DNA from: Nitrospiraceae bacterium | GTDB lineage: Bacteria; Nitrospirota; Nitrospiria; Nitrospirales; Nitrospiraceae | DNA length: 60,875 nucleotides | NCBI GenBank assembly: GCA_035623075.1 | Contig: DASPUC010000004.1 | Location: forward strand, 1 to 60,875 | Direction of reading: 5' to 3' | In this document: positions 6,233-23,379 of the stretch, piece by piece | Numbering within the stretch: the stretch's first letter is position 1 | Layout of the letters: each line of letters opens with the position of its first letter | The notes under the pieces: model-generated | The model's database searches: none | What the model was told of the DNA's origin: nothing | Seen by the model: the letters and a program-made list of their open reading frames with translations, nothing else | Translations under genes and position numbers: made by a program

Positions 6233-6283
6233 CGCGGCGAATTGTATCAGGACCCCTTGGAAATAGAAAGAAAGTCAAATCGT

Positions 6284-6312
6284 TGACATCCAGCTGATGC
6301 AAGTTGATACTA
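6284..6312 (+). promoter_or_regulatory. Sigma-70 promoter of the gene at 6364
   Basis: Consensus -35 TTGACA (6284-6289), 17-nt spacer, -10 GATACT (6307-6312). It lies in the divergent region between glgC and the small coiled-coil gene, with about 50 nt of leader before ATG 6364. Confidence 0.6.
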
Positions 6313-6363
6313 CCCGGTAGTCGGATGTCATGAGTGGGCCGAACGCGAACTGAGGAGCGTATT

Positions 6364-6642: not shown

Positions 6643-6727
6643 CTTTCCTGGTGAGCGTATCCTCGCAGTGATTTCCGCCATTAGCAATCAGATAGCACGC
6701 TGTTCCCTCCTGCCGGAGTAGGTTCCG

Positions 6728-7825
6728 TTGGCCGATCCTATCCTGGAGCTCATCTCGCTCGTCAAACGGCACAACGGTGTCCTCGCCGTGGATCACGTTT
6801 CGTTCGCCATCGACCGGGGAGAATTCTTTTCAATCCTGGGCCCTAGCGGAGCCGGCAAAACGTCCGTCCTCCGCATGATTGCGGGGTTCGAGCCGCCCGA
6901 CGAGGGAGTGATTCGAATAGAAGGACGATCGATCCACGGAATTCCGCCCCACCGTCGTCCCGTCAATCTGGTGTTTCAATCTTACGCACTATTTCCTCAT
7001 TTGAGCGTGGGAGAAAACGTGGCGTTCGGTCCGAAGATGCAAGGAATGGCGGTCGGCGAGATTCATTGTCGTATTCGTGCAGTCTTAGACATGGTGAAAC
7101 TGACGGGGAAAGAAGCGCGGCTTCCGGCAGAATTATCGGGCGGCGAGCAACAACGGGTGGCCATCGCCCGTGCGTTGATCAATCAGCCCGCCGTGCTCCT
7201 CCTGGACGAACCGCTTTCGGCCTTGGATCATCAATTGCGCCAGGACATGCAGGTGGAGTTAAAGGCCATTCAGAAACGAGTCGGTATTACTTTTGTTTGC
7301 GTGACGCATCATCAGAAAGAAGCGTTGGCCCTCTCCGACCGCCTTGCAGTGATGCACCAAGGGCAGGTGTTGCAGGTCGGGACTCCGGAAGAGATATATG
7401 ACGCGCCGGCGAACCGTTTTATCGCCCAGTTTGTGGGGAGCTCAAATGAATTGCGCGGGGTGTTAGTCGGCAATGATGGAGGAACAGGGCTGTTTCAGTC
7501 GCATGATCTAGAAGAAGGTCAAAACATCCGCGTGCGTGTCACGGGGGATATGGAACCTCACAAACCCGTGGCGTTCATGGTGAGGCCAGAACGTCTGCAC
7601 CTCTCGGCGGCAATCGAGGCTCCAGCGTCTGATAATCGTCTCCAGGGTCGCGTCGAAAAGGTGCTCTATCTCGGGAGTGAATTACAGTACACGATTCGAC
7701 TCTCCGGGTCGGTGCAATGGACGGTCCAGGTGTCCTGCCTGTCCGGCGGGCAAAAGGTATGGCCGGTTGGGACGAATCTTTTCGTCCACTGGCGCGCTGA
7801 GGACGGATTGGTGCTGCTGTTATGA
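6728..7825 (+). CDS. potA: Spermidine/putrescine-type ABC transporter ATP-binding protein
   Basis: 365 residues. Walker A GPSGAGKTS, Q-loop VFQSYALFPHL, signature LSGGEQQRVAIARAL, Walker B LLLDEPLSALD and H-loop VTHHQKEA are all present, followed by a C-terminal TOBE-like regulatory domain (from about residue 240). It energises uptake through the two permeases encoded next. Start TTG 6728 with GGAG upstream is the only sensible start before the conserved N-terminus. Its stop overlaps the next start (ATGA). The family also includes iron and thiamine importers, but the four-gene set and PotD-like binding protein favour polyamines. Confidence 0.85.
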   Translation: MADPILELISLVKRHNGVLAVDHVSFAIDRGEFFSILGPSGAGKTSVLRMIAGFEPPDEGVIRIEGRSIHGIPPHRRPVNLVFQSYALFPHLSVGENVAFGPKMQGMAVGEIHCRIRAVLDMVKLTGKEARLPAELSGGEQQRVAIARALINQPAVLLLDEPLSALDHQLRQDMQVELKAIQKRVGITFVCVTHHQKEALALSDRLAVMHQGQVLQVGTPEEIYDAPANRFIAQFVGSSNELRGVLVGNDGGTGLFQSHDLEEGQNIRVRVTGDMEPHKPVAFMVRPERLHLSAAIEAPASDNRLQGRVEKVLYLGSELQYTIRLSGSVQWTVQVSCLSGGQKVWPVGTNLFVHWRAEDGLVLLL

Positions 7826-8727
7826 CCCGGCTAGCCGGCAGCACGGGATCGCTTGAAGACATGGGCCATCCTGTGTCGAGTCATCGGACGACGTATTGGC
7901 TACTCACCCCGGGGATCCTTTGGTCGGTTGCGTTCCTGTTTATCCCTCTGATCGTGGTCGGCGTGATCAGTTTTGCCACGCGAGGAACATACGGCGGGGT
8001 GATCTGGCAGTTCAATCTTGAGAACTATCGTGATTTGTGGCACGTGGTCTATACACGCATCTTCGGCCAATCCCTCGTCCTTGCCTTCCTGACAACCGTG
8101 ATCTGTTTGGTGATGGGTTTTCCGCTGGCCTATTACATCGCCAGACTGTCTCCACGCTGGCAGGCTGTCTGGCTTATGTTGATCATGATTCCCTTTTGGA
8201 CAAACTTTCTCGTCCGCACCTATGCCTGGATGTTCATCCTGCGAACTGAGGGCCTGTTGAACACCCTTTTGCTCGGCCTTGGGGTGATCACGACCCCACT
8301 CGATCTACTCTACACCGACAAAGCGGTTCTCATCGGTCTGGTGTACGGCTACCTCCCGTTCATGGTGCTCCCGCTCTATGCGACGCTCGAACGGTTGGAT
8401 CCAGCCTTGGTCGAGGCAGCCAAGGATCTCTATGCGAATCAGTGGTCCGTGTTCCGGCGAGTCATCGTTCCGCTCGCGAAACCTGGCATCATCGCTGGAT
8501 GCCTCTTGGTATTCATCCCTTCTCTTGGCGCCTTCATCACACCCGACCTGTTGGGTGGTGCGCGCAATATGATGGTCGGCAATCTGATACAACATGAATA
8601 TTTGGTCGCGCGGGATTGGCCACTAGGGTCGGCCATTTCCTTGATTCTCCTGATCGTCGTCATCGCGGCTGTTATCGCCTATTTCTTCGTTGAGTCCACA
8701 AGGTCTCGCAGGGAAGTTGAGCCGTGA
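7822..8727 (+). CDS. potB: Polyamine ABC transporter permease, PotB type
   Basis: 301 residues with six predicted membrane segments and the EAA loop that contacts the ATPase (LVEAAKDLYANQWSVFRRVI, about residues 196-215). The start ATG 7822 overlaps the potA stop; ATG 7861 is an alternative that would remove 13 N-terminal residues. The stop overlaps the potC start (GTGA), so the operon is tightly coupled. Confidence 0.85.
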   Translation: MTRLAGSTGSLEDMGHPVSSHRTTYWLLTPGILWSVAFLFIPLIVVGVISFATRGTYGGVIWQFNLENYRDLWHVVYTRIFGQSLVLAFLTTVICLVMGFPLAYYIARLSPRWQAVWLMLIMIPFWTNFLVRTYAWMFILRTEGLLNTLLLGLGVITTPLDLLYTDKAVLIGLVYGYLPFMVLPLYATLERLDPALVEAAKDLYANQWSVFRRVIVPLAKPGIIAGCLLVFIPSLGAFITPDLLGGARNMMVGNLIQHEYLVARDWPLGSAISLILLIVVIAAVIAYFFVESTRSRREVEP

Positions 8728-9491
8728 AACATCGGGAATCGTGGTTGCCGTTGGTTGCCATCTTCAATGTCGGGTTTTTATACCTGCCCATCCTCGTGCT
8801 GTTGGTGTTTTCCTTCAATGCGTCCCGATTGGCCGCGACCTGGCAGGGATTTTCATGGCACTGGTATAGCCAACTGGCTGAAAACGGCGCGCTTCACGCC
8901 GCCGTGCAAAACAGCTTGCTCGTGGCCGTGGCATCGACGGCGGTGGCAACGGTGCTGGGTATTCCTGCTGCCATGGGACTAGAGCGGCTGGCGCGCCGCC
9001 CCCGACAGATCCTGGGAGGGTTGTTCCTGTTGCCGCTTGTCATTCCCGAAGTGATGATGGGAGTGTCCTTACTGCTGCTGTTTGTCATGATCGGGATGCC
9101 GCTGGGTCTGACGACGGTGATACTGGGGCATACAACCTTCAACCTCCCTGTCGTTATCGTACTCGTGCGAGCGAAGTTGCGAAAGCTCGACCCGTGCCTG
9201 GAGGAAGCGGCGGCTGACTTGGGGGCGTCGCCATGGGAGATCTTTCGCCTGATCACCCTTCCTCTGCTACGGCCTGCCATCCTCGGAGCCGTCTTGCTGG
9301 CCTTTACCGTGTCACTCGACGACTTTATCGTAACCTTTTTTGTCGCAGGTCCCGGGGCGACGACACTTCCTTTGAAAGTGTATTCGATGATCAAGTCCGG
9401 CGTTTCGCCGGAAATCAACGCCCTGTCTGCCCTGATGGTGCTGCTGTCGATGGGGCTTGTGTCTATCTCACTTCTCCTTCAGCGGCGGTGA
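8724..9491 (+). CDS. potC: Polyamine ABC transporter permease, PotC type
   Basis: 255 residues, six membrane segments, and the EAA loop LEEAAADLGASPWEIFRLIT near residues 159-178. The motif FTVSLDDFIVTFF is typical of PotC. GTG start at 8724 overlaps the potB stop. It pairs with the PotB-type protein to form the inner-membrane channel. Confidence 0.87.
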   Translation: MKHRESWLPLVAIFNVGFLYLPILVLLVFSFNASRLAATWQGFSWHWYSQLAENGALHAAVQNSLLVAVASTAVATVLGIPAAMGLERLARRPRQILGGLFLLPLVIPEVMMGVSLLLLFVMIGMPLGLTTVILGHTTFNLPVVIVLVRAKLRKLDPCLEEAAADLGASPWEIFRLITLPLLRPAILGAVLLAFTVSLDDFIVTFFVAGPGATTLPLKVYSMIKSGVSPEINALSALMVLLSMGLVSISLLLQRR

Positions 9492-9505
9492 CGATCGGCG
9501 TGGCC

Positions 9506-10555
9506 ATGAGAGTGTACGGGGCGATCGTTCTGAGTCTGGTCCTCTGCAGTATCGCAATCGGGTTCGGTTGCCAGCGAGGGTCTCAGCCGGGCAATGGCAC
9601 GTTGCACTACTTTACCTGGTCGGACTACGTGAGTCCCGAGCTCATCACGGAATTTGAACGGCAACATGGCGTCAAGGTCGTGATCGACACCTTCAGTAGT
9701 AACGAAGAATTGTTGGCGAAACTGCAAAGCGGCGCGACCGGGTACGACGTCACTGTGCCGTCCGATTTCATGGTGTCGATCATGATCGCACAAGGACTAT
9801 TGGCTGAGCTCGATATGAAAGCCGTACCGAACAGCGCTCTCCTTGAAGAACATCTCCAACGTTTGGCCTTCGACCCCGAGCATCGTTACGCCATGCCGTA
9901 TCTCTGGGGAACGGTCGGGATTGGATACGATTCCGCTGCCGTGACACCCCCGCCGGACAGTTGGGCTGTCCTCTGGGACCCGCGCTATGCGGGCAAGATC
10001 AGTATGTTAAACGATCAGCGGGAGGTCTTTGGCGCGGTCTTCCGATCCATGGGCAAGTCAATGAATGTGACGGATCCGGCGATCATCGAGGAAGCGAAGC
10101 AGAAACTGATTGCCCAGAAGCCGCTCGTGAAAACCTACGCAAGCGAACACTATGATCAGCTCTTAGCCTCAGGAGATGTCATTCTCGCACACGGGTGGGG
10201 GGGGCCGGTCGCACGGGCTATGCGTGAGCGGCCGTCGATCCGATATGTGGTGCCCAAAGAAGGGGGGACGATTTGGGCCGACTGTCTTGTGGTACTGAGA
10301 TCGTCGAAGAAGAAGGAATTGGCGATGCAATTCATTAACTTCTTAATCGACACCCGTGTGGCGGCGCAGACCTCGGAACGACTGCTCTTCGCTGCCTCGA
10401 ATCGTGAAGCAGGACGACTCGTGAATAATCAGGTGCGTGAGAACCCTGCCGTCTATCCTCCGGCCGACCTGATTCCACGCTTGGAGTGGATGACCGATGT
10501 CGGAAAAGCTATGCGAATCTACGACCGGGCTTGGACAGAGCTCAAAATCCACTAA
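9506..10555 (+). CDS. potD: Polyamine-binding periplasmic (lipo)protein, PotD type
   Basis: 349 residues. An N-terminal hydrophobic segment ends at GFGC, a weak lipobox, so it may be a lipoprotein or a cleaved periplasmic protein. The mature part starts LHYFTWSDYVSPELITEFE, characteristic of the PotD/PotF family, and contains YDVTVPSDFMV and PYLWGTVGIGYD. Start ATG 9506 lies 14 nt after the potC stop; GTG 9500 is also possible. It captures the substrate for the PotABC importer. Confidence 0.87.
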   Translation: MRVYGAIVLSLVLCSIAIGFGCQRGSQPGNGTLHYFTWSDYVSPELITEFERQHGVKVVIDTFSSNEELLAKLQSGATGYDVTVPSDFMVSIMIAQGLLAELDMKAVPNSALLEEHLQRLAFDPEHRYAMPYLWGTVGIGYDSAAVTPPPDSWAVLWDPRYAGKISMLNDQREVFGAVFRSMGKSMNVTDPAIIEEAKQKLIAQKPLVKTYASEHYDQLLASGDVILAHGWGGPVARAMRERPSIRYVVPKEGGTIWADCLVVLRSSKKKELAMQFINFLIDTRVAAQTSERLLFAASNREAGRLVNNQVRENPAVYPPADLIPRLEWMTDVGKAMRIYDRAWTELKIH

Positions 10556-10600
10556 GTCGTGGTTTCTCAAGAGCTTCTTCCACTCTTTTTGCTTTCACTG

Positions 10601-10606
10601 TATAAT
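10601..10606 (+). promoter_or_regulatory. Candidate -10 box for the efflux operon
   Basis: A perfect TATAAT lies 46 nt after the potD stop and upstream of the outer-membrane factor gene. No good -35 is visible 17 nt upstream, so an activator may be needed. It suggests the efflux genes are transcribed separately from the pot operon. Confidence 0.35.
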
Positions 10607-10687
10607 GCCACTCATCTCAAGCTCGGTGGCCTAGGTGTGAGGTGTGGACACCGCCACCACTGCTCTGGTCCTTTCGTGGGGCATTCG

Positions 10688-11998
10688 GTGTCTGTGGCTT
10701 TTTATAGGCAGGTGCGCGCGGTTTACCTTCTCGCCTTCCTCGCAGTCTTTTTCGGGGCACCGCTTTCTGGGGCAGACGGGTCGGCGGATACGATCGAACA
10801 AGGTTCTTCGAGAACTCTCCGACTCAGCGTCAACGAAGCGCTGAGTCTGTTCTTGAGTCAGAATCTGGACGTCCTGGTCGCCAAATATGGAATCGAGTAT
10901 GCCAAGGGACAACAGATTACGGCTCGGCTCTTTCCCAACCCGGTTATGTCGATCGGAACTCTCAGCGCCTATACGCAAGGACATACGGCGAGCAACAGCG
11001 GCCAGCTGTTCATGCAAGCGCAACAGCTATTTGAGTTGGCCGGAAAACGAGGGTATCGCATCGAAAGTGCCGGTTATGGGACGCAATCGGCGGAAGCAGC
11101 TTTCGAAGATGCGGTTCGTCAACTCAGCTTTACTGTCAAAGACACCTATTATCGCATTCAGCTGGCCCTCCGTCGCCTGGCCCTGGCCGAAGAGAATCGC
11201 GACCGGTTTTCACGCATCCTTGACGTCAATACGATTCGCTTTAAGAAGGGCTACATTGCCGAAGTCGACCTCATCCGGATTCGGTTGCAAATGGTGGATT
11301 TTCAATCACAAGTCATCGGTGCGTTACAGGAAGCGGAATCGGCCAAGGGAGATCTTCGACAATTGTTACGACTCACACCGAAAACATCGTTGGAACTCAC
11401 GACGGATTTGGATTTTCGCCGGATCGATCCCGATATCGCCAAACTACGGGTCGCCGCCCTCGACGCCCGTCCGGATGTCCGAGCAAAGCGGTTTACCTAC
11501 TCTCAACGGGAGGCAGATTTGAAACTAGCCAGAGCCTATCGGATTCCTGATGTGACGATCGGCGCAGGCTATGCGATTCAGGGGGCGCAGGGACCAGATA
11601 ATCAACAGCAATTTGCCCTTAATATGGGACTGCCGCTCCCCTTGTTCAATCGGAATCAGGGGGGCATCCGGCAAGCCGAAGTGGCCACTCAGACGGCGGA
11701 AGCCGACTTGAACAAAACCATGATCTTAGTTGAGAATGAGGTGGAAGTCGCGTATCGCAATCTCCTGCAGAGCCGGAGGCTCGTGGAAGCCTATATTGGA
11801 GGTGTGCTCGAAGATGCCCGGGCCACCTTTACCATTGTTGAGCGGGCTTATGAACGGGGAGGGGCGACCATCCTTGATCTTCTTGATGCGGCCCGGACAT
11901 CGCGGACGATTCAGCAGAATTATATCGAGGCCTTATTCAACTATCAGCACAACTTGTTTCAACTCGAAAGCGCTGTGGGGCAGGAGCTCGCTTCATGA
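10688..11998 (+). CDS. Outer-membrane efflux factor, TolC/CzcC family
   Basis: About 436 residues. The N-terminal hydrophobic stretch VYLLAFLAVFFGAPLSGADG is a signal peptide. The rest is helical, with the paired repeats of the OEP family (LSLFLSQNLDVLVAKYGIEY, then VAALDARPDVRAKRF and the second half ending near LFQLESAVGQEL). It forms the outer-membrane exit duct for the adaptor and RND pumps that follow. The frame is open from 10559; GTG 10688 is chosen because it puts the signal peptide at the N-terminus, and GTG 10694 is equally possible. The stop overlaps the adaptor start. Confidence 0.85.
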   Translation: MSVAFYRQVRAVYLLAFLAVFFGAPLSGADGSADTIEQGSSRTLRLSVNEALSLFLSQNLDVLVAKYGIEYAKGQQITARLFPNPVMSIGTLSAYTQGHTASNSGQLFMQAQQLFELAGKRGYRIESAGYGTQSAEAAFEDAVRQLSFTVKDTYYRIQLALRRLALAEENRDRFSRILDVNTIRFKKGYIAEVDLIRIRLQMVDFQSQVIGALQEAESAKGDLRQLLRLTPKTSLELTTDLDFRRIDPDIAKLRVAALDARPDVRAKRFTYSQREADLKLARAYRIPDVTIGAGYAIQGAQGPDNQQQFALNMGLPLPLFNRNQGGIRQAEVATQTAEADLNKTMILVENEVEVAYRNLLQSRRLVEAYIGGVLEDARATFTIVERAYERGGATILDLLDAARTSRTIQQNYIEALFNYQHNLFQLESAVGQELAS

Positions 11999-13143
11999 AG
12001 GAAAGGATTGAAAGGGTAACCCTTGTTGTCCTGTTGTCCGCGCTCGTGGCCTGCGGGCGTGGAGAGCAACCAGCTCATTCGGACGCTGCAACTCCGCCGG
12101 TCGGAAAAAGCAGGGCGGTCAAATCCGAGGCACAACCGCGTATCGAGACCGCGATCGTCGAATTTAGTCCATCCCACCAGGCGCTGACACTTTCCGGCAA
12201 GATTGCCTATGGGGAGGACCGGTATTCCCGGATTTCGTCGCCACTGCAAGGCCGTGTGGTCGAAGTACGGGCACGTTTGGGAGACAGGGTGAAAGCAGGA
12301 GCGGTTTTGCTGGTGGTTGACAGCCCCGATATCGCGCAAGCGTACTCGGAATATATGAAGGAGGACTCCGACCTCCAGTATGCGACGAGGGCCTATGGGT
12401 TAGCCAAAGATCTCTACGAAGACAAGGCGATGCCGCTCAAAGATCTCAAGCAGGCTGAGAACGAGTTGGTCAAGGCTCGGGCGGAGTTCCGACGTGCAAA
12501 GGAACGATTGCTGTCACTGAGGGTTCCTGCAGAGGAATTGAATAAGCCCTTGGATAAGCAGCAGATCACATCGCGATTTGAAATGAAAAGTCCCCTGACC
12601 GGGACCGTTGTCGAGCGGTCGGTCACGCCGGGGCAATCGGTTGGTGGTGATCCCGGTCAAGTGTTGTTCACCGTAGCGGATCTGGACATGCTTCAAGTCG
12701 TGGCGGATCTCTACGAGCGTGACCTCTCTTTGGTGAAGGAAGGCCAGTTCGCCAAGGTCACCGTCGAGGCTTACGCGGGCATGGATTTTCCAGCCACGGT
12801 GGCCATGATCGGCGATGTGGTTGATCCGACGACGAGAACGATCAAATTGCGCGCGTGGGTCAACAATGACGCACACAAACTCAAGCCTGAAATGTTTGCT
12901 CGCCTGCACATCGAAGTAGGGGATTCGGCTCAAATCCTGACCATTCCGCGTGAGGCAATTCTGGAAGCAGACGGAAAACAATTCGTCTACGTGATGGAAG
13001 CCCCGGATCGGTATGTCAAACGAGAAGTCAAAGTTGCCGGTGCGTCGGGAGAGCAGGCTCGGATTGTCGAAGGGCTTCGTTCAGGCGAGAGAATCGTGGT
13101 CAAGGGAGCTGTGCTTATCAAGGGGCAGGAAGTCAAGGGATAA
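11995..13143 (+). CDS. RND efflux periplasmic adaptor, CzcB/CusB-like lipoprotein
   Basis: 382 residues. The lipobox LVAC is at about residues 17-20. The barrel-sandwich half-motif SPLQGRVVEVRARLGDRVKAG, a helical hairpin (about 115-185) and the second half SPLTGTVVERSVTPGQSVGG follow, then a beta-barrel and membrane-proximal domain. It links the outer-membrane factor to the inner-membrane pumps. ATG 11995 overlaps the upstream stop. No Met- or His-rich metal-binding N-terminus is visible, so the metal is not indicated. Confidence 0.88.
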   Translation: MKERIERVTLVVLLSALVACGRGEQPAHSDAATPPVGKSRAVKSEAQPRIETAIVEFSPSHQALTLSGKIAYGEDRYSRISSPLQGRVVEVRARLGDRVKAGAVLLVVDSPDIAQAYSEYMKEDSDLQYATRAYGLAKDLYEDKAMPLKDLKQAENELVKARAEFRRAKERLLSLRVPAEELNKPLDKQQITSRFEMKSPLTGTVVERSVTPGQSVGGDPGQVLFTVADLDMLQVVADLYERDLSLVKEGQFAKVTVEAYAGMDFPATVAMIGDVVDPTTRTIKLRAWVNNDAHKLKPEMFARLHIEVGDSAQILTIPREAILEADGKQFVYVMEAPDRYVKREVKVAGASGEQARIVEGLRSGERIVVKGAVLIKGQEVKG

Positions 13144-13196
13144 GACGGCTCACTGCTAGTGCGTGACATGCAGCGGTTGAACAATCCCCTACAGCT

Positions 13197-16100
13197 ATGA
13201 TCGCCAAGCTGGTCGAGTTCGCACTTGTCCAGCGGGTTTCAGTCTGCCTCGGCGGTATCGTTCTTCTTTTCGGCGGCCTCTACGCCTTTCATATCCTCGA
13301 CGTCGTCGCGTATCCGGATCCCTCCCCGCCGATGGTCGAGATCATCACCCAGTACCCCGGATGGTCGTCTGAAGAAATCGAACGACAACTCACGATTCCC
13401 ATCGAAACGACGCTCCTCGGTATGCCGGGGCTCAAAGAAATCCGGTCCCTCTCTATCTTCGGCCTGAGCGACATCAAGTTCTACTTCGACTTCTCCACCA
13501 ATTACTTCACGGACCGACAGGAAGTTCTGAATCGGATCGCGATGCTCAATTTGCCGGGCAACGTGCAGCCGGCGCTCTCGCCCTGGTGGGCGATCGCAGA
13601 GATCTATCGTTACGAACTGGTCGGTGACCAGATGCCATTGACCGAGCTGAAAGCACTCCAGGATTGGAAACTCCAGCGTGAATTCAAGCGGGTGCAGGGA
13701 GTGATCGATGTCACGGCGTTCGGAGGAACCACCAAAGAATACCATGTCGACATTAATCCAGGGGCTCTGCTCAGCTACGAAGTGAGCCTCCCGCAAGTCA
13801 TCAACGCATTGACCAACAGCAACGCCAACGTCGGCGGCAATTATCTGACGATCGGAGCGCAGAATTACAATATCCGTGGTCTGGGGCTTATCAATGGCTT
13901 GGAAGACATCGAAAATGTGATGGTGACGGAGAAAAGCGGAACACCGATCTTTATCAAAAACCTCGGCAAAGTCAGCGTGGGGCACCGTATACGTCTTGGC
14001 AAGGTGGGCATCGACGAGCGCGATGATGTCGTGGAAGGTGTGGTGCTACTCCAGCGAGGCTACAAGGCGGAGCCGGTCTTGGAACGGGTGAGGCAAAAAG
14101 TTGAGGAGCTGAACACCTGGAAGCTGCCCCAAGGAGTCACGATCAAAACCTTTTACGATCGAACGACGCTGATTCATACGACGGTCGAGACGGTGGTGGA
14201 CATTCTCATCAGCGGGATCGTGCTCGTCTTCATTATTCTGTTCGTCTTTCTCGGGCACTTTCGGACAGCCGTCATCGTCGCCTTGACGGTGCCGATGGCG
14301 CTCCTCTTCACGTTCAGCATGATGGTGCTGGTCGGTGAATCAGCGAACCTCATCTCGCTCGGCGCGATTGATTTCGGCATCATCGTCGATTCGACGCTGA
14401 TCATGGTGGAAAGTATCTTCTCTCATCTTGCTCACCGGAAGGGTCCGCAACTAACGGTTCCCATGCACATTACCAGAGCTGCGAGGGAAGTCGGAAAGCC
14501 GATCTTCTTTGCGACCACTATTATCGTCGTCGCGTTCATTCCCCTCTTCACGATGACCGGGGTACCGGGGAAGATCTTTGCCCCGATGTCGCTGACCTAT
14601 GGGTTCGCGCTCACCGGTGCGCTGCTGATGGCCTTTACCTTGGCTCCTGCCATCAGTGCCTTTCTCCTCACGGGCCCTATTCGAGAGGAAGAAACCTGGC
14701 TGGTGCGGGTCATCAGGCAGCGGTACATGCGGGGATTAAACTGGGCGCTTCGTCATCCAGTACCGATCATTGGCATCATGTTGGGATTATTCGCGATGGC
14801 CCTGATTGCCGCCACCAGGCTCGGTGGCGAGTTCATGCCGGCACTAGAAGAGGGCAATCTCTGGGTGCGCGCGACGATGCCAGTGGATATCTCGTTTGAG
14901 CAGGCAGACCGGTTGTCGGCGGATGTCAGGAAGATATTTCGGCAGTTCCCCGAAGTCGACAGTGTGGTTTCTCAATTGGGCCGGCCGGATGACGGGACCG
15001 ATCCGACCAGCTTCTTCAACGCGGAATATCTCGTCAATCTCAAGCCCCGCTCGGTGTGGCGTAGTGAGCTACACCACGATAAGGAAGCCTTGATCGAGGA
15101 TATTGAGCGCCAACTGCACAGGATTCCGGGAGTCACGTTCAATTTCTCCCAGGTTATCCAAGACAACGTGCAGGAGGCGATGTCCGGAGTCAAAGGGGAA
15201 AATTCCATCAAGCTGATCGGCTCTGATCTCAAGACCCTGGAAGCCAAGGCGGTGGAAATCGAGAAGGTGATGCAGCAAGTGAAGGGGGTCAAGGATCTAG
15301 GAGTTTTCCGGCTGCTCGGCCAACCGAATCTGCTCATCGAAGTGGATCGACAAGCCTGCGCACGCTACGGGTTGTTGGTGTCGGATGTGAATGCGGTCAT
15401 CCAGGCTGCGATCGGAGGACAGGCGACCACGAGAGTATTTGAAGGAGAGCGTTGGTTTGATCTCGTCGTCCGGTTCCTCCCTGAGTATCGGCAGGACGTG
15501 GATGCCATCGGCAGCATTCTTGTCACGAATACTGAAGGGGCAAAAATTCCGCTCAAGCAACTGGCATCGGTCACGATGCAGACCGGCGCGTTCATCATCT
15601 ATCGCGAGAATAACGAGCGCTACATCCCGATTAAATTCAGCGTGCGCGGACGGGATCTGGAAAGTACGGTGAAAGAGGCTCAACGGCTTATTCAAGAACA
15701 GGTCACGCTGCCACCCCGCTACCGGATCGAATGGCACGGCGAGTTCGATCAATTGCAAGAAGAGAAGCAGCGGCTGTCGACCGTCGTGCCGATGAGTCTC
15801 CTCATCATTCTGGTCCTCATCTATCTCGGGGTGGATTCGCTTCGCGATGCATTGTTGGTGTTGTCGACCGTTCCCTTTGCACTGATCGGCGGGATCTTTT
15901 CGCTGTTGTTCACGGGGACCGACTTCAGTATTTCTGCTGCCGTCGGTTTCATCTCCCTCTTCGGAGTGGCGATCCAAGGCGGACTCATTCTGGTCGTGAG
16001 AATTCGTGATTTGTTGGAACAAGGGCACGAACTGACCGATGCCATCGTGCAAAGCGCGGAAGCGCGGATGCGCCCGGTTCTCATGACGACGCTGGCTGCA

Positions 16101-16274
16101 GCGATTGGGTTGTTTCCTGCCGCTGTGGCCACCGGGATCGGAGCCCAATCCCAACAACCTTTGGCTCGGGTCGTGGTCGGTGGCATGCTCACGTCGGCCG
16201 TGCTGATTCTTTTGGTTCTTCCGGTTCTGTACGCGCTCCTCCATCGGGGTCTGGCCAGCAAGGAACAGCCATGA
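13197..16274 (+). CDS. HME-type RND efflux pump, first tandem copy
   Basis: 1025 residues, a full-length CzcA/CusA-type transporter with twelve membrane helices and two periplasmic loops. The proton-relay motif in TM4 is DFGIIVD followed by STLIMVES (D392, D398, E405), spaced as D402/D408/E415 of CzcA; the usual GA after the second Asp is ST here. The N-terminal loop reads LSPWWAIAEIYRYEL instead of the common GLGP-type stretch. It starts 53 nt after the adaptor, and its end overlaps the second pump (ATGA). Export of heavy metals is the family role; the substrate is not shown. Confidence 0.87.
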   Translation: MIAKLVEFALVQRVSVCLGGIVLLFGGLYAFHILDVVAYPDPSPPMVEIITQYPGWSSEEIERQLTIPIETTLLGMPGLKEIRSLSIFGLSDIKFYFDFSTNYFTDRQEVLNRIAMLNLPGNVQPALSPWWAIAEIYRYELVGDQMPLTELKALQDWKLQREFKRVQGVIDVTAFGGTTKEYHVDINPGALLSYEVSLPQVINALTNSNANVGGNYLTIGAQNYNIRGLGLINGLEDIENVMVTEKSGTPIFIKNLGKVSVGHRIRLGKVGIDERDDVVEGVVLLQRGYKAEPVLERVRQKVEELNTWKLPQGVTIKTFYDRTTLIHTTVETVVDILISGIVLVFIILFVFLGHFRTAVIVALTVPMALLFTFSMMVLVGESANLISLGAIDFGIIVDSTLIMVESIFSHLAHRKGPQLTVPMHITRAAREVGKPIFFATTIIVVAFIPLFTMTGVPGKIFAPMSLTYGFALTGALLMAFTLAPAISAFLLTGPIREEETWLVRVIRQRYMRGLNWALRHPVPIIGIMLGLFAMALIAATRLGGEFMPALEEGNLWVRATMPVDISFEQADRLSADVRKIFRQFPEVDSVVSQLGRPDDGTDPTSFFNAEYLVNLKPRSVWRSELHHDKEALIEDIERQLHRIPGVTFNFSQVIQDNVQEAMSGVKGENSIKLIGSDLKTLEAKAVEIEKVMQQVKGVKDLGVFRLLGQPNLLIEVDRQACARYGLLVSDVNAVIQAAIGGQATTRVFEGERWFDLVVRFLPEYRQDVDAIGSILVTNTEGAKIPLKQLASVTMQTGAFIIYRENNERYIPIKFSVRGRDLESTVKEAQRLIQEQVTLPPRYRIEWHGEFDQLQEEKQRLSTVVPMSLLIILVLIYLGVDSLRDALLVLSTVPFALIGGIFSLLFTGTDFSISAAVGFISLFGVAIQGGLILVVRIRDLLEQGHELTDAIVQSAEARMRPVLMTTLAAAIGLFPAAVATGIGAQSQQPLARVVVGGMLTSAVLILLVLPVLYALLHRGLASKEQP

Positions 16275-19200
16275 TCGTTCGACTCGTCGAATTCGCTCTT
16301 GTCCAGCGGGCACTCATGCTGATCCTGGGTGTCGTCCTGTTCTTCGGCGGTCTCTACGCGTTTCACATTCTCGACGTTGTCGCCTACCCTGACCCCTCGC
16401 CGCCCATGGTAGAGGTCATCACCCAATATCCCGGATGGTCGGCTGAGGAAATCGAGCGGCAAGTGACGATACCCATCGAAACAGCTCTCACCGGCATGCC
16501 GGGTCTGACCGACTTACGTTCGCTCTCCATTTTCGGGCTGAGTGACATCAAGTTCTATTTTGCGTTCGGAACGGACTACTTCAAAGATCGGCAGGAGGTC
16601 CTGAACCGGCTGGCAATGATGTCGTTTCCGGAATCCATCACGCCGACGCTGTCGCCCTGGTGGGCCATTGCAGAAATCTATCGCTATGAAATGGTGGGCG
16701 ACGACGTGTCCTTGACGGATCTGAAAACGATTCAGGATTGGCAATTGCACCGAGAAATTAAACGGGTGCCCGGTGTTGTGGACGTGACGGCATTTGGCGG
16801 CACGACGAAAGAGTATCACGTCAATGTCAATCCGGGGGCCTTGCTGAGTTACGGCGTTACTCTGCCGCAAGTCCTGGGGGCTCTCACGAACAGCAATGCC
16901 AATGTCGGGGGTAATTACCTCACGGTGGGATCGCAGAATTTCAATATCCGAGGGTTGGGGCTGATCAATAACATGGACGATATCGAAAACGTGATGGTGG
17001 CGGAGAAAGACGGGACCCCGATCTTTGTGAGGAATCTCGGGAAAGTCAGCCTGGGCCATCGGATACGTCTGGGCAAGGTCGGCATTGACGATCGGGACGA
17101 CGTGGTTGAGGGCGTCGTCCTGCTGCAGCGCGGTTACAAAGCCATGGCAGTCTTGGAGCTACTCAAGAATAAGGTCGAGGAGCTGAACGCCTGGAAGCTG
17201 CCGGCGGGGGTCAAGATCAAGACGTTCTACGATCGGACGATCCTGATTCAGACCACGATCGAAACAGTCGTCGATATTCTGATCAGTGGCATGGTCCTGG
17301 TCTTCTTCATTCTCTACGTGTTCTTGGGACACTTCCGTGCCGCATTGATTGTGGCCTTGACGATCCCGCTCTCCTTGCTCTTCACGTTCGCGATGATGGT
17401 GCTCGTCGGACAATCGGCCAATCTCATCTCGCTCGGTGCGATCGATTTCGGGATCATCGTCGATGCCGCACTGATCATGGTAGAAAGCGTGTTTTTTCAC
17501 TTGGCCCACCCCACAGGGCCTCATTTGACAACGCCGCAACACGTCATTCGCGCGGCCCGGCAGGTTGGGCGACCGATTTTTCTTTCTACGGCCATCATCG
17601 TCGTGGCCTTCATTCCGCTATTTACGATGACCGGCGTGCCCGGAAAGATCTTTGCTCCAATGTCCATCACGTACGGGTTTGCGCTGGTCGGCGCGCTCTT
17701 GATCGCATTTACTCTGGCGCCGTTGCTGTGTTCGATCCTACTCGCAGGGCCTATTCGAGAACAGGATACGGCGGTCGTACGAGTCGTCCGTCGGCTGTAC
17801 GAATCCGTGTTGAAATGGGCGCTCAAGCACGCGCTCTTCGTTGTCGGATTAGGACTACTGCTGTTGATCGTCGCCGTAGGCGCGCTGCAATTTGTGGGCG
17901 GGGAGTTCATGCCGGCGTTGGAGGAGGGCAATCTGTGGGTACGGGCGACCATGCCGGTCGATATCGCCTTTGAGCAAGCCGCCAGGTTGGCCACCGAGAT
18001 CAGGGGAATCTTTCGACAGTTTCCAGAAGTGGCGAATACCGTGTCTCAGTTGGGGAGACCGGATGACGGCACCGACCCGACCAGTTTTTTTAATGCCGAA
18101 TTCCTGGTGACGCTCAAACCTCAGCGGCAATGGCGGTCGGAAATTATCTCGAAGGAGAAGCTGGTTGAAGAGATTGAATCGGTTTTGGCACAGATTCCCG
18201 GCATCACATTTAATTTCTCGCAGATGATTCAAGATAACGTTCAGGAAGCGATGTCCGGTGTAAAGGGAGAGAACTCCATTAAGTTGTTCGGATCGGATCT
18301 GAAGGTCCTCGAGCAGGCTGCAGTAAAGATTGAGCGGGCCATGAAAGAAGTTCCGGGGGTGAAGGATCTGGGTATTTTCAGGCTGATGGGCCAGCCCAAT
18401 CTCCTGATCAAGGTCGACCGGGAGGCGTGCGCGCGGTACGGTCTGTCGGTGTCCGATGTGAATGCCGTGATCCAAGCGGCGGTGGGGGGGCAGGGTGTGA
18501 CTCGTGTCTTTGAGGGTGAAATGTGGTTCGATTTGGTCGTTCGCTTCCTGCCGGAATATCGGCAAGATGTCGAGAGCATCGGCAATATCCTGGTCAGCAC
18601 GCCGGAGGGGGCGAAGATTCCCCTCAAGCAATTAGCACTGATTTCGACTCAGGCCGGCGCGTTCATTATCTATCGCGAGAATAACGAGCGCTATATTCCG
18701 ATCAAGTTCAGTGTCCGCGGGCGTGACTTGGAAAGCACAGTGAAGCAAGCTCAGACGACGCTGGGAAACCGCATTCAACTGCCGGAACGGTATCGAATCG
18801 AATGGGCGGGAGAATACGATCAGCTGAAGGATGAGCAAAAACGGCTCACCATCGTTGTGCCCTTAGCGCTGGTGGTTATCCTCTTCCTTCTCTACACCAC
18901 GTTTGATTCGGTACGAGATGCATTTTTGGTTTTTGCCACTGTCCCCTTTGCCCTCATCGGGGGTGTCCTCTCGCTCGTTGTGACGGGAACCGCGTTCAGT
19001 ATCTCTTCTGCTGTCGGCGTCATCTCGACCCTTGGCGTGGCTATTCTCGGCGGTGTGCTGCTTATCTCCCGCATCGTGGAGTTTCGCGACACGGGCATTC
19101 CGTTGCGAGAGGCCATTATCAAGGGAGCGGACGTTCAGATGCGTCCGATTCTCATGGCCACCCTCGGTGCGGCGATCGGCCTCTTGCCCGCGGCGCTCGC

Positions 19201-19348
19201 CACCGGCATCGGATCCCAAGCCCAAAAACCTCTAGCGCGAGTCGTTGTCGGCGGTATGTTGACCGCGGCGGTCTTGATTTTGGTGGTCTTGCCGGTGTTG
19301 TATGAACTGGTGCACAGACGCGATAGGATGAACGATGAAAAGGAATAA
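16271..19348 (+). CDS. HME-type RND efflux pump, second tandem copy
   Basis: 1025 residues, identical in length to the preceding pump and clearly a paralogue, with long shared stretches such as YAFHILDVVAYPDPSPPMVE. The TM4 motif is DFGIIVD followed by AALIMVES (D392, D398, E405). The start overlaps the first pump stop. One adaptor and one outer-membrane factor serve two pumps, so the two may form a mixed trimer as MdtB/MdtC do, or act separately. Confidence 0.87.
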   Translation: MIVRLVEFALVQRALMLILGVVLFFGGLYAFHILDVVAYPDPSPPMVEVITQYPGWSAEEIERQVTIPIETALTGMPGLTDLRSLSIFGLSDIKFYFAFGTDYFKDRQEVLNRLAMMSFPESITPTLSPWWAIAEIYRYEMVGDDVSLTDLKTIQDWQLHREIKRVPGVVDVTAFGGTTKEYHVNVNPGALLSYGVTLPQVLGALTNSNANVGGNYLTVGSQNFNIRGLGLINNMDDIENVMVAEKDGTPIFVRNLGKVSLGHRIRLGKVGIDDRDDVVEGVVLLQRGYKAMAVLELLKNKVEELNAWKLPAGVKIKTFYDRTILIQTTIETVVDILISGMVLVFFILYVFLGHFRAALIVALTIPLSLLFTFAMMVLVGQSANLISLGAIDFGIIVDAALIMVESVFFHLAHPTGPHLTTPQHVIRAARQVGRPIFLSTAIIVVAFIPLFTMTGVPGKIFAPMSITYGFALVGALLIAFTLAPLLCSILLAGPIREQDTAVVRVVRRLYESVLKWALKHALFVVGLGLLLLIVAVGALQFVGGEFMPALEEGNLWVRATMPVDIAFEQAARLATEIRGIFRQFPEVANTVSQLGRPDDGTDPTSFFNAEFLVTLKPQRQWRSEIISKEKLVEEIESVLAQIPGITFNFSQMIQDNVQEAMSGVKGENSIKLFGSDLKVLEQAAVKIERAMKEVPGVKDLGIFRLMGQPNLLIKVDREACARYGLSVSDVNAVIQAAVGGQGVTRVFEGEMWFDLVVRFLPEYRQDVESIGNILVSTPEGAKIPLKQLALISTQAGAFIIYRENNERYIPIKFSVRGRDLESTVKQAQTTLGNRIQLPERYRIEWAGEYDQLKDEQKRLTIVVPLALVVILFLLYTTFDSVRDAFLVFATVPFALIGGVLSLVVTGTAFSISSAVGVISTLGVAILGGVLLISRIVEFRDTGIPLREAIIKGADVQMRPILMATLGAAIGLLPAALATGIGSQAQKPLARVVVGGMLTAAVLILVVLPVLYELVHRRDRMNDEKE

Positions 19349-20165
19349 CCGTATGCGCGGAATCACCGCACACGAAGGGAGACGCAGGATGCTGGTCGGT
19401 CTCGTCGCGGGATTTGTCCTCGGAGTGAGTACGCCGGCATGGGCGGTGCAAGACCAAAGTCGCTGGTTGGTGCCGGTCCAAATGCCGTACGAAGCCCCGC
19501 CGAAATCTCCGGACGTTCCGGACTTCTCGGTTCCTCCCAACAACAAAGCGCTGAGTCCCGAAGAGCTTCAGCGAGCCGAAGCCCTGTTGCCGTTGCTCGA
19601 AGGGAAACAGGAGTTTTGGGCGATGGGCGAATTCGTCCATCTCGGCGAACCGGTCGTGCCGGTTCTGGTCAAAGGGTTGACCATGCCGGGCCCGCGCCTC
19701 CGCTATAACACGATTGAAACTCTTTCGATGATGCATGCGACCGCGGCGGTCCCTTCCTTGCTCGCGACGGCCAAAGAACCCAATGAGATTCCTCGAGTTC
19801 GAGAGCATGCCTTGCGGGTGGCGGTGCGGCTGGACGCGTCGAAAACTCCTGAAGCGATAGCCGTGATGGCCAAGGATCAGAATTCTTCGATTCGCAAGGT
19901 CGCAGCGTTCGAATCGCGCTATGTCCGGGAAAAAGCCGTGATTCCAACCTTGATCGGAATGATCGCTGACGACGAACGGTTTGTGGGACTGACGGCGGTG
20001 CAATCCCTGTGGATTTTGACCAGACACGAGACAGAATTCCATGATTGGGATATATCAACCAAACAGGATCGGCAGGATTGGTCGGTCGAGTGGGTCGAGT
20101 GGTGGAACAGCACCAAGGACTCATTTGAGTTGCCGGAGTCGCGGCGGCCCGCGCCCGCTCGCTAG
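19335..20165 (+). CDS. HEAT-repeat secreted protein
   Basis: 276 residues. A basic N-terminus and hydrophobic segment (MLVGLVAGFVLGVSTPAWA) form a signal peptide. The mature part holds HEAT-like helical pairs (VVPVLVKGLTMPGPRLRYNT, AVPSLLATAKEP, KAVIPTLIGMIADD). ATG 19335 overlaps the pump gene by 14 nt; ATG 19389 has the better ribosome site (AAGGGAG) but would drop the positive charges before the signal peptide. Cotranscription with the efflux genes suggests a periplasmic accessory role, which is inference. Confidence 0.65.
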   Translation: MKRNNRMRGITAHEGRRRMLVGLVAGFVLGVSTPAWAVQDQSRWLVPVQMPYEAPPKSPDVPDFSVPPNNKALSPEELQRAEALLPLLEGKQEFWAMGEFVHLGEPVVPVLVKGLTMPGPRLRYNTIETLSMMHATAAVPSLLATAKEPNEIPRVREHALRVAVRLDASKTPEAIAVMAKDQNSSIRKVAAFESRYVREKAVIPTLIGMIADDERFVGLTAVQSLWILTRHETEFHDWDISTKQDRQDWSVEWVEWWNSTKDSFELPESRRPAPAR

Positions 20166-20182
20166 CTCCTGCCTTCGCGTGG

Positions 20183-20212
20183 TTGCAGGCTCGAAAAACC
20201 CTGTGTTATAGG
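20183..20212 (+). promoter_or_regulatory. Probable promoter of def
   Basis: TTGCAG (20183-20188), 18-nt spacer and TATAGG (20207-20212) lie upstream of peptide deformylase, with about 40 nt of leader. Confidence 0.4.
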
Positions 20213-20258
20213 ATTCAATCACGATAGATTCATACGCAAGCATGGTGTTAGCTCGAAT

Positions 20259-20789
20259 ATGGCACTGTTAAAAATTGCAAAGCTCGGAAATCCTGTGCTC
20301 CGGAAAGTGGCGGATCCAGTCGATCCCCGGGACATTAAGACTAAAGAGTTTCAACAACTCATCGATGATATGTTCGAGACGATGCTCGATGAGCCAGGGA
20401 TCGGCTTAGCGGCGCCGCAGGTCTCTCGTTCGATTCAGCTGACCGTGATGGGGTGCGAGGGTGAGGGGGGATTTCCCTCAACCGTCTTAATCAACCCCAC
20501 GATTGTCTATTACGGACCGCACCAAGTCGAAAATTGGGAGGGTTGCCTCAGTGTCGATGGCTTGCGGGGCAAAGTGACGAGACCGTCCATGGTTCGGGTT
20601 CAGGCTCTTGATCGCCAAGGTCGGATGCTTGATTTCGAAGCAACCGGTCTGTACGCGGTCTGCATCCAGCATGAACTGGATCATTTGATCGGGAAAGTAT
20701 TTTTAGACCGCATGACCGATCTGTCAACCCTCACGCAACTCAATGAATTCACGCATTACTGGCAGAAGGAGCCAGCCTCGGTCATTTGA
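20259..20789 (+). CDS. def: Peptide deformylase
   Basis: 176 residues, normal length. It removes the formyl group from the N-terminal Met of new proteins. The three metal-site motifs are intact: GIGLAAPQ (about 47-54), EGCLS (about 93-97) and HELDH (about 134-138), giving the Cys and two His metal ligands and the catalytic Glu. It begins ALLKIAKLGNPVLRKVADPV as usual. An ABC exporter gene follows after 27 nt. Confidence 0.97.
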   Translation: MALLKIAKLGNPVLRKVADPVDPRDIKTKEFQQLIDDMFETMLDEPGIGLAAPQVSRSIQLTVMGCEGEGGFPSTVLINPTIVYYGPHQVENWEGCLSVDGLRGKVTRPSMVRVQALDRQGRMLDFEATGLYAVCIQHELDHLIGKVFLDRMTDLSTLTQLNEFTHYWQKEPASVI

Positions 20790-20816
20790 GCTGATGGACA
20801 ACGGACTGATCAACTC

Positions 20817-22541
20817 GTGAAATCCCTCCTCCGCGTCCTCCAGTATCTCCGCCCCTACCGCCGACTGGCGTTGTTGACTTTGCTGGCAGCTGCCTCTGCA
20901 ACCGCCATGGAACTGCTCCCGCCCTGGCTGATCAAGGTAGTGATCGACGACGTGATCCAAGGTCAACAGATGTCTCTGCTACCCTGGGTCTTGGGTGGCT
21001 TGGTGGTGTCGTACGGTTTGAAAACCTCCTTCGCATCGCTCCGTATCCGACTCAACAACCGGTTGGAACAGACGGTCGTCCACGACTTGCGCAGTCATGT
21101 TTTCAGCTCCCTCCAACGACTGTCGATCAACTACTTCGAAAACCGCTCGACTGGCGAGATCATGTCGCGAGTGACGAACGATACCGAACATGTCGAACGG
21201 ATCTTCATCGACGGGCTTGAGGGGGCATTAACGGCCTCGCTGACCTTGATCGGCATCACGAGCATGCTTTTCGTTCTCAATTGGAAGCTTGCGGTTCTCT
21301 CGTTGCTGCCGATTCCTCTCCTGATGGTGTCGGCCAGTTGGTTTACAAGGACAGTACATGGCTACTATCATCATATCCGCAAGGTTTCAGGCGAACTCAG
21401 CAGCTACCTCCAGGACGCTCTCTCAGGGATCAGAGAGACGATGGGGTTCTCCAGGCAGAACTATGAGCAGCAACGATTCGATCGGTTGAGCCGAGCCTAC
21501 AGTGCCAGTAATCTCAAGGCGATGTACCTCTGGTCGCTGTACTCGCCGGGGATGATGTTCCTCGGCAGCGTGGGGACGGTCCTGATCCTCTGGTATGGCG
21601 CTGGGGAAGTGCGGGATGGTCGATTAACGTTGGGAGAACTGGTCCTCTTTCTGTCCTATCTCGCTTTATTTTACGTACCGATCAATCAGATTCATTCCGT
21701 GAACCACATGTTACAGCATGCGCTCGCGGCGAGCGAAAGGGTCTTTGAGGTCCTCGATACGATTCCCGACGTGCGCGACCGTCCGGGTGTCACGGCGCCG
21801 GTCAAGCGGGTGCGCGGCGAGGTCAAATGCGAGCAGGTGATGTTCCACTATCGTCCCGACGTGCCGGTCTTGAAGGGGCTGACGGTGTCGGTTCGTCCCG
21901 GAGAACGCGTGGCCCTTGTCGGACCGAGCGGGGCGGGGAAAAGCACGTTGGTGAAGCTGCTCATGCGGTTCTACGATGTGACGGGCGGGGCCATCTTGAT
22001 CGATGGAATCGACCTGCGCGATCTGCCGCTCCGCTATGTGCGAGATCACATCGGATTCGTTCAGCAGGAGCCCTTTTTGTTTAACGGATCCGTTCGGGAA
22101 AACATCCTCTACGGAAACCTTGCGGCGACCGAGCATCAACTTGAACTCGCGGCCCGTGCGGCAAGGGCTCACGAATTCATCGTCGGACTGCCGGAAGGCT
22201 ACGACACCTGGATCGGAGAACGGGGGATCAAGTTGTCTGTCGGCCAGAAGCAGCGGGTCTCGATCGCGCGCGTGCTGCTGAAGGATCCCCCGGTCGTGAT
22301 CTTCGATGAAGCGACGTCGAACATCGACACCGAAACCGAGGTGAAGATCAGAGAAGCATTGAATGAATTGACGAAAGGCCGAACAACTATCATCATCGCC
22401 CATCGACTGTCGACGTTGCACGACGCTGATCGCATTCTCGTCATGGATGAGGGGCGATTGGTGGAACAAGGACGGCATGATGAACTGCTCTCTCGAGGCG
22501 GCGTGTACGCGACTCTCTATGAGGCGCAGTTTCAAGTCTAG
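20817..22541 (+). CDS. ABC exporter, MsbA/lipid-A or multidrug type half-transporter
   Basis: 574 residues. An N-terminal six-helix membrane domain (about 1-300) is fused to an ATPase domain: Walker A GPSGAGKST, Q-loop VQQEPFLFNGSV, signature LSVGQKQRVSIARVLL (LSGGQ in most), Walker B VVIFDEATSNID, H-loop IIAHRLST. It acts as a homodimer in the inner membrane. GTG 20817 is the start. MsbA-like lipid flippase is likely, but drug or peptide export cannot be excluded. Confidence 0.82.
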   Translation: MKSLLRVLQYLRPYRRLALLTLLAAASATAMELLPPWLIKVVIDDVIQGQQMSLLPWVLGGLVVSYGLKTSFASLRIRLNNRLEQTVVHDLRSHVFSSLQRLSINYFENRSTGEIMSRVTNDTEHVERIFIDGLEGALTASLTLIGITSMLFVLNWKLAVLSLLPIPLLMVSASWFTRTVHGYYHHIRKVSGELSSYLQDALSGIRETMGFSRQNYEQQRFDRLSRAYSASNLKAMYLWSLYSPGMMFLGSVGTVLILWYGAGEVRDGRLTLGELVLFLSYLALFYVPINQIHSVNHMLQHALAASERVFEVLDTIPDVRDRPGVTAPVKRVRGEVKCEQVMFHYRPDVPVLKGLTVSVRPGERVALVGPSGAGKSTLVKLLMRFYDVTGGAILIDGIDLRDLPLRYVRDHIGFVQQEPFLFNGSVRENILYGNLAATEHQLELAARAARAHEFIVGLPEGYDTWIGERGIKLSVGQKQRVSIARVLLKDPPVVIFDEATSNIDTETEVKIREALNELTKGRTTIIIAHRLSTLHDADRILVMDEGRLVEQGRHDELLSRGGVYATLYEAQFQV

Positions 22542-22573
22542 CCTCGCAGTGGGCAATCGTTGCGGGTTCCCCG

Positions 22574-22813
22574 ATGACGTCGGTATACTTCCATTCGCTT
22601 CAGAAGAGTGAGCAGCTCATGGTGCTGATTTACGAGAGCGATCCGCTGGATGATGAACATGCCCGAGGAAATTTCTATCATGTCTGCCGTGGGCGGATCG
22701 ATCGAACCCCGTTAAGCGTCCCACCCGTTGAGCAGCCCTACGAATGTCCGCAGTGCGGGCTCGATCTCGAAGCGGAAGATTTTTGGATGGCGATGCAGAA
22801 GGGATCGGTATAG
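22574..22813 (+). CDS. Small cytoplasmic protein with one CxxC, unknown
   Basis: 79 residues ending with EQPYECPQCGLDLEAEDFW, a CxxC knuckle, plus an earlier Cys in YHVC. That would give three Cys and a His for a possible zinc site. ATG 22619 is an alternative start. It is followed after 6 nt by another small Cys-containing gene. I recognise no family. Confidence 0.45.
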   Translation: MTSVYFHSLQKSEQLMVLIYESDPLDDEHARGNFYHVCRGRIDRTPLSVPPVEQPYECPQCGLDLEAEDFWMAMQKGSV

Positions 22814-22819
22814 CGTCTT

Positions 22820-23029
22820 ATGACGAGCAGTGCTGGGCGGAAAACGGTGTCGGTTATGCGCGGCTTGATGATGCTGTGTGAGACGTGTCACCGTCAAGTC
22901 ATTGCGGAGAAGCTCGTAGACCACAAGAACTACGTGTCAGACCATGAAGCACTGTTCGACAGCATTTGTCCTGGTTGTATCGACATCAACCGTCCGCTGA
23001 TCGACGATATGCTGGGAAGTTCCGAGTAA
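22820..23029 (+). CDS. Small zinc-ribbon-like protein, unknown
   Basis: 69 residues with two CxxC pairs (CETC at about residues 20-23 and CPGC at about 50-53), fitting a four-Cys zinc ribbon. ATG 22820 is the longest start; ATGs at 22856, 22868 and 22871 are also possible and would keep both Cys pairs. Probably cotranscribed with the gene before it. Confidence 0.45.
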   Translation: MTSSAGRKTVSVMRGLMMLCETCHRQVIAEKLVDHKNYVSDHEALFDSICPGCIDINRPLIDDMLGSSE

Positions 23030-23040
23030 CCCACCGTCCC

Positions 23041-23379
23041 TTATTTGCAGACCTTCCCATCGAAGATCATACAGGTGGATTCGCCCCCCTTCACTTGCCA
23101 TGTTTTCAAGAGAGGAAGATTGTTGTCCCCGCGCATTTCGACGACGAAATCAACGAGCACACCTTGAGGTAATTTGTCGAGGTGTGGTTTGGCGGTTTCA
23201 CTGACTTCGATATAGAAGACTTTTGCGCTGGTTGAGATGAGAATTTGGTTTTTCTCCTTATCGATGAAGATCACGGGGCTATAGAAACTCCGTTCTTCAG
23301 CCATCGTGGGAGGAATGACGATGAGAAAGAGGAACCAGACAACCAGTGCTCCAATCGACAGGCCGCGGGTAATCTGCAT
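23041..23379 (-). CDS. Small secreted protein, unknown
   Basis: 112 residues with a signal peptide (LSIGALVVWFLFLIVIPPTMA). The mature part is a small beta-rich domain (NQILISTSAKVFYIEVSE) with two Cys near the C-terminus. ATG 23379 is chosen because GAGGAG precedes it; the upstream GTG 23388 is less likely. It lies 107 nt downstream of the JAMM peptidase gene and may be its own unit. Confidence 0.55.
   Translation of the reverse strand: MQITRGLSIGALVVWFLFLIVIPPTMAEERSFYSPVIFIDKEKNQILISTSAKVFYIEVSETAKPHLDKLPQGVLVDFVVEMRGDNNLPLLKTWQVKGGESTCMIFDGKVCK

Follow-up and report, generated by a model that had tools for sequence, protein, structure and literature searches.

Two RND genes in tandem behind a single adaptor gene are found in the HAE-1 systems MdtABC, MuxABC and SmeJK. 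MdtBC is reported to be active as a B2C heterotrimer (PMC7015380, PMC12802153), and the HAE-1 two-RND pairs are described as about 50% identical and as having arisen from a single ancestral duplication that probably took place in Proteobacteria (PMC10872679). The same survey covered 6205 permeases from 920 proteomes and assigns all 203 tandem repeats to one HAE-1 clade (PMC10872679). Among the metal pumps of the HME family, ZneA and CzcA come with one adaptor and one outer-membrane factor (OMF), and the protomers of CusA are reported to act independently inside the trimer (PMC8092243).

Here we describe an operon with two HME-type RND genes from a nitrite-oxidizer-like member of the Nitrospiraceae (GCA_035623075.1; 3.39 Mb in 58 contigs). 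The whole stretch of DNA that was analyzed, hereafter called the window, comprises 60,875 nucleotides of contig DASPUC010000004.1 (C4 in our numbering). The operon resembles MdtABC, MuxABC and SmeJK in its two tandem RND genes behind one adaptor, but differs from these HAE-1 systems in that its pumps belong to the HME family, are 74% identical to each other and include a mosaic second copy. It shares with ZneA and CzcA a TIGR00914 score above the cut-off, the three acidic residues of TM4 and the single adaptor and OMF, whereas the presence of two RND genes and of a HEAT-repeat gene in the operon, and a TM4 motif reading DFG-DST/DAA-VES instead of DFG-DGA-VEN, set it apart from both.

Because the published survey contains tandems in one HAE-1 clade only, an HME tandem appears to be new. 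No description of an HME mixed trimer or an HME tandem was found in the accessible parts of the open-licence literature searched, and a TIGR00914 search of 88 Nitrospirota genomes yielded no other directly adjacent HME gene pair among the matches listed. One candidate for an HME-HME fusion, in which a single open frame gave two HME matches (G169, contig C3), was rejected, as this stretch consists of separate neighboring operons. At that locus, two different HME operons, by reading of the sequence apparently one CusA-like and one CzcA-like, lie side by side and are followed by a P-type-ATPase-like ORF.

Organization of the operon

The operon comprises five forward-strand genes, which overlap or are separated by short gaps. 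The first encodes the single duct, an OMF of the TolC/OEP family (10559..11998; PF02321, E = 2.2e-45), which scored 93 bits and thus under the cut-off against the IhpA-like model NF045679, and whose real start probably lies inside this ORF. The ORF of the only periplasmic adaptor (membrane fusion protein; 11995..13143; PF16576, E = 1.7e-53; 160.9 bits against TIGR01730 RND_mfp with a cut-off of 94.9) overlaps the OMF stop with its start. It is followed by RND-A (13197..16274) and RND-B (16271..19348), both 1025 amino acids long, with the stop of the former and the start of the latter overlapping as ATGA at 16271–16274. The start of the last gene (19335..20165; PF13646, E = 2.2e-10), which encodes a secreted-looking HEAT-repeat protein, overlaps the end of RND-B, and synteny identifies it as a member of the operon and its conserved last gene. 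A first-pass annotation, made from the sequence alone, had described two full-length tandem RND genes of the HME type together with a single adaptor and a single duct. Both RND ORFs are intact and the single adaptor and OMF ORFs lie upstream of them, so this description is correct, and the arrangement is unusual. The annotation contained neither the conserved HEAT-repeat gene nor a third RND paralogue (C) of the same genome, which is located outside the operon (G000:C22:2031-5084).

The HEAT-repeat gene closes most operons of this type, including those that contain no RND gene. Its product was modeled as all-helical from residue 75 on (mean pLDDT 79.4), and many residues are invariant among 15 aligned homologues. 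A comparison with solved folds retrieved mostly generic HEAT/armadillo designs and adaptor-type proteins (best E = 5.3e-4, TM score 0.43 on the query), from which no function follows.

The operon is preceded by ABC transporter genes for solute uptake, including that of a solute-binding protein (6728–10555). Downstream, a 176-residue ORF, which we take to be peptide-deformylase-like, precedes an ABC exporter (ORFs of 176 and 574 amino acids, 20259–22541). At locus L255 the operon is flanked by ORFs of like size and order, as judged from ORF size alone, and the neighborhood therefore looks old. Scanning of positions 6200–23200 gave 13 promoter-like sites (7.8 expected) and 17 terminator-like sites (15.9 expected).

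Family and proton relay of the two pumps

RND-A and RND-B are identical at 749 of 1017 positions (74%). With 932.3 and 912.6 bits, respectively, against TIGR00914 (CusA/CzcA family; curated cut-off 701.45), both belong to the HME-RND proteins. Scores against the models of the HAE-1 Mdt clade were far under the cut-offs of 1774 for MdtC and 1584 for MdtB (334 and 318 bits for RND-A, 329 and 311 bits for RND-B). The closest solved relative of the two pumps is the Zn exporter ZneA (732 and 746 bits), followed by CusA (533 and 528 bits). Acidic residues at positions 135, 171, 602, 610 and 656 (numbered as in A) are retained by both copies and align with periplasmic acids of ZneA that are presumably its Zn ligands. 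Both CzcA-type aspartates, which are reported to go with divalent cations (PMC2891726), are present here, in contrast to CusA (HME4, Cu(I)/Ag(I)), which has one of them. According to our reading of a phmmer alignment, the Met site M573/M623/M672 of CusA (PMC8092243) is also not kept in RND-A. Based on the HME family, on ZneA as the best solved relative and on the presence of both aspartates, the substrate of the operon would belong to the divalent metals.

The TM4 relay segment extends from D392 to E405 in both RND-A (14370..14411, DFGIIVDSTLIMVE) and RND-B (17444..17485, DFGIIVDAALIMVE). All three carboxylates (D, D, E) needed for proton antiport are present and numbered alike in the two copies, as annotated before. 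We compared these positions across relatives of the A type, the C type and the B type, the latter occurring either in tandem with A or as a single gene. D392, D398 and E405 are invariant in 19/19 A, 5/5 tandem-B and 87/87 single-B rows of the alignment, and are found in 27/28, 27/28 and 28/28 C rows, respectively. The residues after D398, ST in RND-A and AA in RND-B, had been singled out as different between the copies. This difference exists, but ST is not peculiar to RND-A, as S399 occurs in 18 of 19 A rows and T400 in all 19, and both are present in all 28 C rows. A399 is likewise common to B-type pumps (5/5 tandem-B and 86/87 single-B rows), and only A400 of the window's B is odd, since T stands at this position in four of the five tandem-B rows.

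Both copies depart from the published HME1/HME2 signature, DFGX3DGAX3VEN (PMC3637150), at its G, A and N (DFGIIVDST...VES in RND-A and DFGIIVDAA...VES in RND-B, with VES for VEN), but keep all three acids. Besides S399 and T400, RND-A carries a third residue of the A clade, Q927 in TM10 (15975..15977). This glutamine is nearly fixed in the A/C clade (18/19 A rows and 26/26 C rows with a letter at this position), whereas all B rows with a letter have L927. In the phmmer alignment, position 927 appears to fall at the column of CusA E939, which is reported to form the CusA relay with D405 and K984 (PMC8092243).

Distribution of A-, B- and C-type pumps

Among 175 genomes of the family, 113 contained a match (at least 500 aligned residues, 55% identity) and were classed; two further genomes matched by query B only (G105, G156) lie outside this census. 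Single B alone was found in 68 genomes, single B with an orphan C in 19, A alone in 14, C alone in six, A with tandem B in four, A with tandem B and C in one (the genome of the window), and two C rows in one. The usual operon thus has one RND gene and, where contigs allow, the order OMF-adaptor-RND-HEAT for both A and single B; it shares the OMF, adaptor and HEAT genes and their order with the operon in the window, and differs from it in the number of RND genes. A-type was the only close RND in 14/113 genomes and single-B-type the only RND of the operon in 87/113, some of these contexts being cut by contig ends. The A-B tandem was present in five genomes (the window's G000 and G004, G005, G011 and G014), which span four genus codes (g1, g3, g9, g12), and always in the order A then B. 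In G014 it is split by contig ends, one contig carrying A plus residues 1–253 of B and another a full B.

For all 28 C rows, the same strand was free of adaptor, OMF and HEAT genes out to a distance of 6 kb, with 10 of the 28 located near a contig end. In four genomes (G018, G020, G026, G028; loci L255–L258) the operon reads OMF-adaptor-HEAT without an RND between adaptor and HEAT gene, and an orphan C is located elsewhere. C may serve the adaptors of these RND-less operons, and such genomes may also possess other HME pumps. The six census genomes that carry C without B (the four RND-less ones, G021, which a contig end interrupts, and G077, which has OMF, adaptor and, where the contig stops, the beginning of an RND) indicate that C does not need B, and together with the genome that has two C rows they led us to reject the idea that orphan C serves solely to partner B. 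Because of the single-type operons and of the RND-less operons accompanied by orphan C, the gene content suggests that each RND type probably works alone. The first-pass annotation had named either copy working alone as the observation that would speak against a mixed trimer; this applies at most to the orthologues, as far as gene content indicates, and not to RND-A and RND-B themselves.

Two side observations were made in this dataset. The genome of the window encodes a second adaptor (L260:9048-10202, contig C48), which is 57% identical to that of the operon and lies on an 18 kb contig with no close RND, OMF or HEAT match; similar lone adaptors were found at L270 and L271. Furthermore, a contig labeled as uncultured Nitrosospira (L062) carries a C-type RND nearly identical in the tree to those of Nitrospira, and this label is probably a binning error.

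Mosaic structure of tandem B

Judged by its sequence affiliations, tandem B is a domain mosaic with a periplasmic part like that of tandem A and a membrane part like that of a single B-type pump. In two stretches of RND-B, residues 1 to about 300 (TM1 plus the first half of the periplasmic part; 16271..17170) and about 551–800 (the second periplasmic half; 17921..18670), the sequence is nearer to tandem A from other genomes than it is to single B, whereas residues about 301–550 (TM2–TM7; 17171..17920) and about 851–1025 (TM8–TM12; 18821..19345) are nearer to single B. The sign of the likeness flips near residues 300, 550 and 800–850, close to where hydropathy indicates that the periplasmic domains end. 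With intervals from column bootstrapping, the window's B is 5.3 points nearer to tandem A from other genomes than it is to single B in the periplasmic part (95%, 3.1 to 7.5), and in the membrane part it lies 8.8 points further from tandem A than from single B (95%, −12.3 to −5.4). Consistent with this pattern, 22 of 25 fixed differences between A and tandem B are located in the membrane part (Fisher p = 1.9e-7), and 12 of 15 between tandem B and single B in the periplasmic part. Where A and single B can be told apart, tandem B sided with A at 10 sites and with single B at one in the periplasm, versus three and 24 sites, respectively, in the membrane (p = 6e-6), with 11 of the 49 informative sites uncounted for want of a clear tandem-B state.

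In a whole-protein FastTree, tandem B (five rows, 0.996) was placed beside the A+C clade (1.0) and apart from the 87 single-B rows, with weak support for the joint group (0.719; SH-aLRT 97 in an earlier tree of 74 rows). Trees of the separate partitions, which included 18 single-B and nine C rows picked at random except for the C of the window's own genome, placed tandem B inside the tandem-A group for the periplasmic columns (94/84) and with single B for the membrane columns (92/95). For the periplasm, the AU test rejected a clade of single B and tandem B (p = 0.026) and did not reject A+C without tandem B (p = 0.14); for the membrane, a group of tandem B, A and C was rejected (p = 0.048, and p = 0.002 with the mosaic row of G001 out of the group). 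This support is only moderate, and the groups had been named with the trees already in view. Faster evolution of the tandem-A membrane part was rejected as the sole cause of the signal: compared with near outgroups, the membrane parts of tandem A and tandem B scored 65.6 and 67.7, and this gap of about 2 points is too small beside their identities to single B (66.7 versus 74.2), although saturation may hide some of it.

We infer that the mosaic arose by recombination and, from the periplasmic tree, that an A head was placed onto B. Two single RND genes, L120 in G001 and L057 in G097, are also A/B mosaics with breakpoints unlike those of tandem B, and recombination between the two types therefore seems general in the family and need not mean selection for matched heads. 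The longest exact DNA tracts shared by A and B of the same genome were 65 nt in G004 (L051), 89 nt in G005 (L053) and 51 nt in G014 (L106/L107), which suggests gene conversion; the tract in G004 covers residues 383–404, and the A of this genome is the one A row without S399. For the pair in the window recent gene conversion was rejected, as no exact tract of at least 27 nt was present and the A-B identity within the genome was not above that across genomes.

Apparent movement of the A-B pair

In a tree of the operon genes, calculated without 10 loci that lack an adaptor or OMF (two of them tandem, L051 and L107), the window's adaptor, OMF and HEAT genes grouped with 19 single-B operons (0.992) and not with the other tandem operons in the tree. 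The rpoB gene agreed with this grouping, that of the window being closest to groups g14 and g15 at 95–96%. RND-A and RND-B, unlike these flanking genes, belong to the tandem clades. Hence the pair sits between Nitrospira-type adaptor and HEAT genes as if A and B had moved together, and the simplest reading is that it replaced a single B via recombination, the alternative being an old duplication with many losses.

Possible modes of action of the tandem

We propose that a conserved divalent-metal efflux operon of the Nitrospiraceae (duct - adaptor - RND - HEAT protein) is present here in a version with two RND genes. Having adaptor and duct in common, A and B would offer in effect one kind of periplasmic head with two membrane (proton-relay) modules, B having most likely gained its A-like periplasmic part through recombination or gene conversion with A. 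Made together and matched in their periplasmic parts, they would assemble on the common adaptor into trimers of one or of both kinds of protomer, in which each protomer would pump on its own proton relay and the motors would be set apart by coupling or working range and not by the metal. We favor this facultative mixing with a probability of roughly 0.45; co-assembly and a difference in coupling are both inferred, and the genomic evidence neither shows nor excludes an MdtBC-like mixed trimer in the HME family. As CusA protomers are reported to be independent (PMC8092243), a trimer of unlike protomers is by analogy mechanically plausible, and the reported tendency of duplicated yeast homomers to form heteromers (PMC6711710) also counts for mixing. 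A working pair is supported by the A-then-B order in five genomes, the A-like periplasm of B and the apparent transfer as a unit. Facultative mixing is opposed by the relatives that run the operon with one RND, by the possibility that C alone serves RND-less operons, by the moderate AU support, the mosaics of G001 and G097 and the absence of a recent conversion tract in the window's pair, and by the reported tendency of E. coli paralogues to stay homomeric (PMC7480870).

This homomeric tendency would fit separate A3 and B3 homotrimers that alternate on one adaptor and duct and divide labor by proton coupling or by pH or metal range, a reading that we regard as quite conceivable and that also agrees with the occurrence of A-type and B-type each alone in the same operon context and of orphan C with RND-less operons. 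However, with overlapping genes and periplasmic parts that are 78% identical, the avoidance of co-assembly would probably need selection, of which no sign was seen. An obligate trimer of the MdtB2C kind, inactive unless both copies are present, could account for the conserved tandem order, for the movement of the pair seemingly as a unit and for the relay-side differences specific to each copy, yet it appears improbable given that all relay acids are intact in both copies, that the orthologues seem to act alone and that, by analogy, the single-RND relatives speak against it. Even less probable is a mere effect of gene dosage or passing redundancy, where the pair means more pump and lineages lose one copy over time: the many single-copy relatives and the conversion-like exact tracts of G004, G005 and G014 are in line with it, but the membrane halves have stayed distinct in all five genomes despite tracts of exchange between the copies, with 22 fixed membrane differences between A and tandem B. 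Returning to facultative mixing, its most far-reaching form, in which the operon would encode the first mixed-trimer HME pump with a common head kept alike by gene exchange and two proton-relay motors, must be considered doubtful at present.

If such a mixed-trimer pump does exist, these Nitrospiraceae would possess one metal exporter with two gears. If the HME tandem arose separately, evolution would have tried the two-RND design a second time, here with heads that are similar and motors that differ. As HME protomers are thought to be independent, the tandem would allow a direct test of mixed trimers and of the worth of a second relay, for which the natural single-A, single-B and RND-less operons are ready-made comparisons. 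The locus is thus well suited for asking whether metal pumps can combine unlike subunits.
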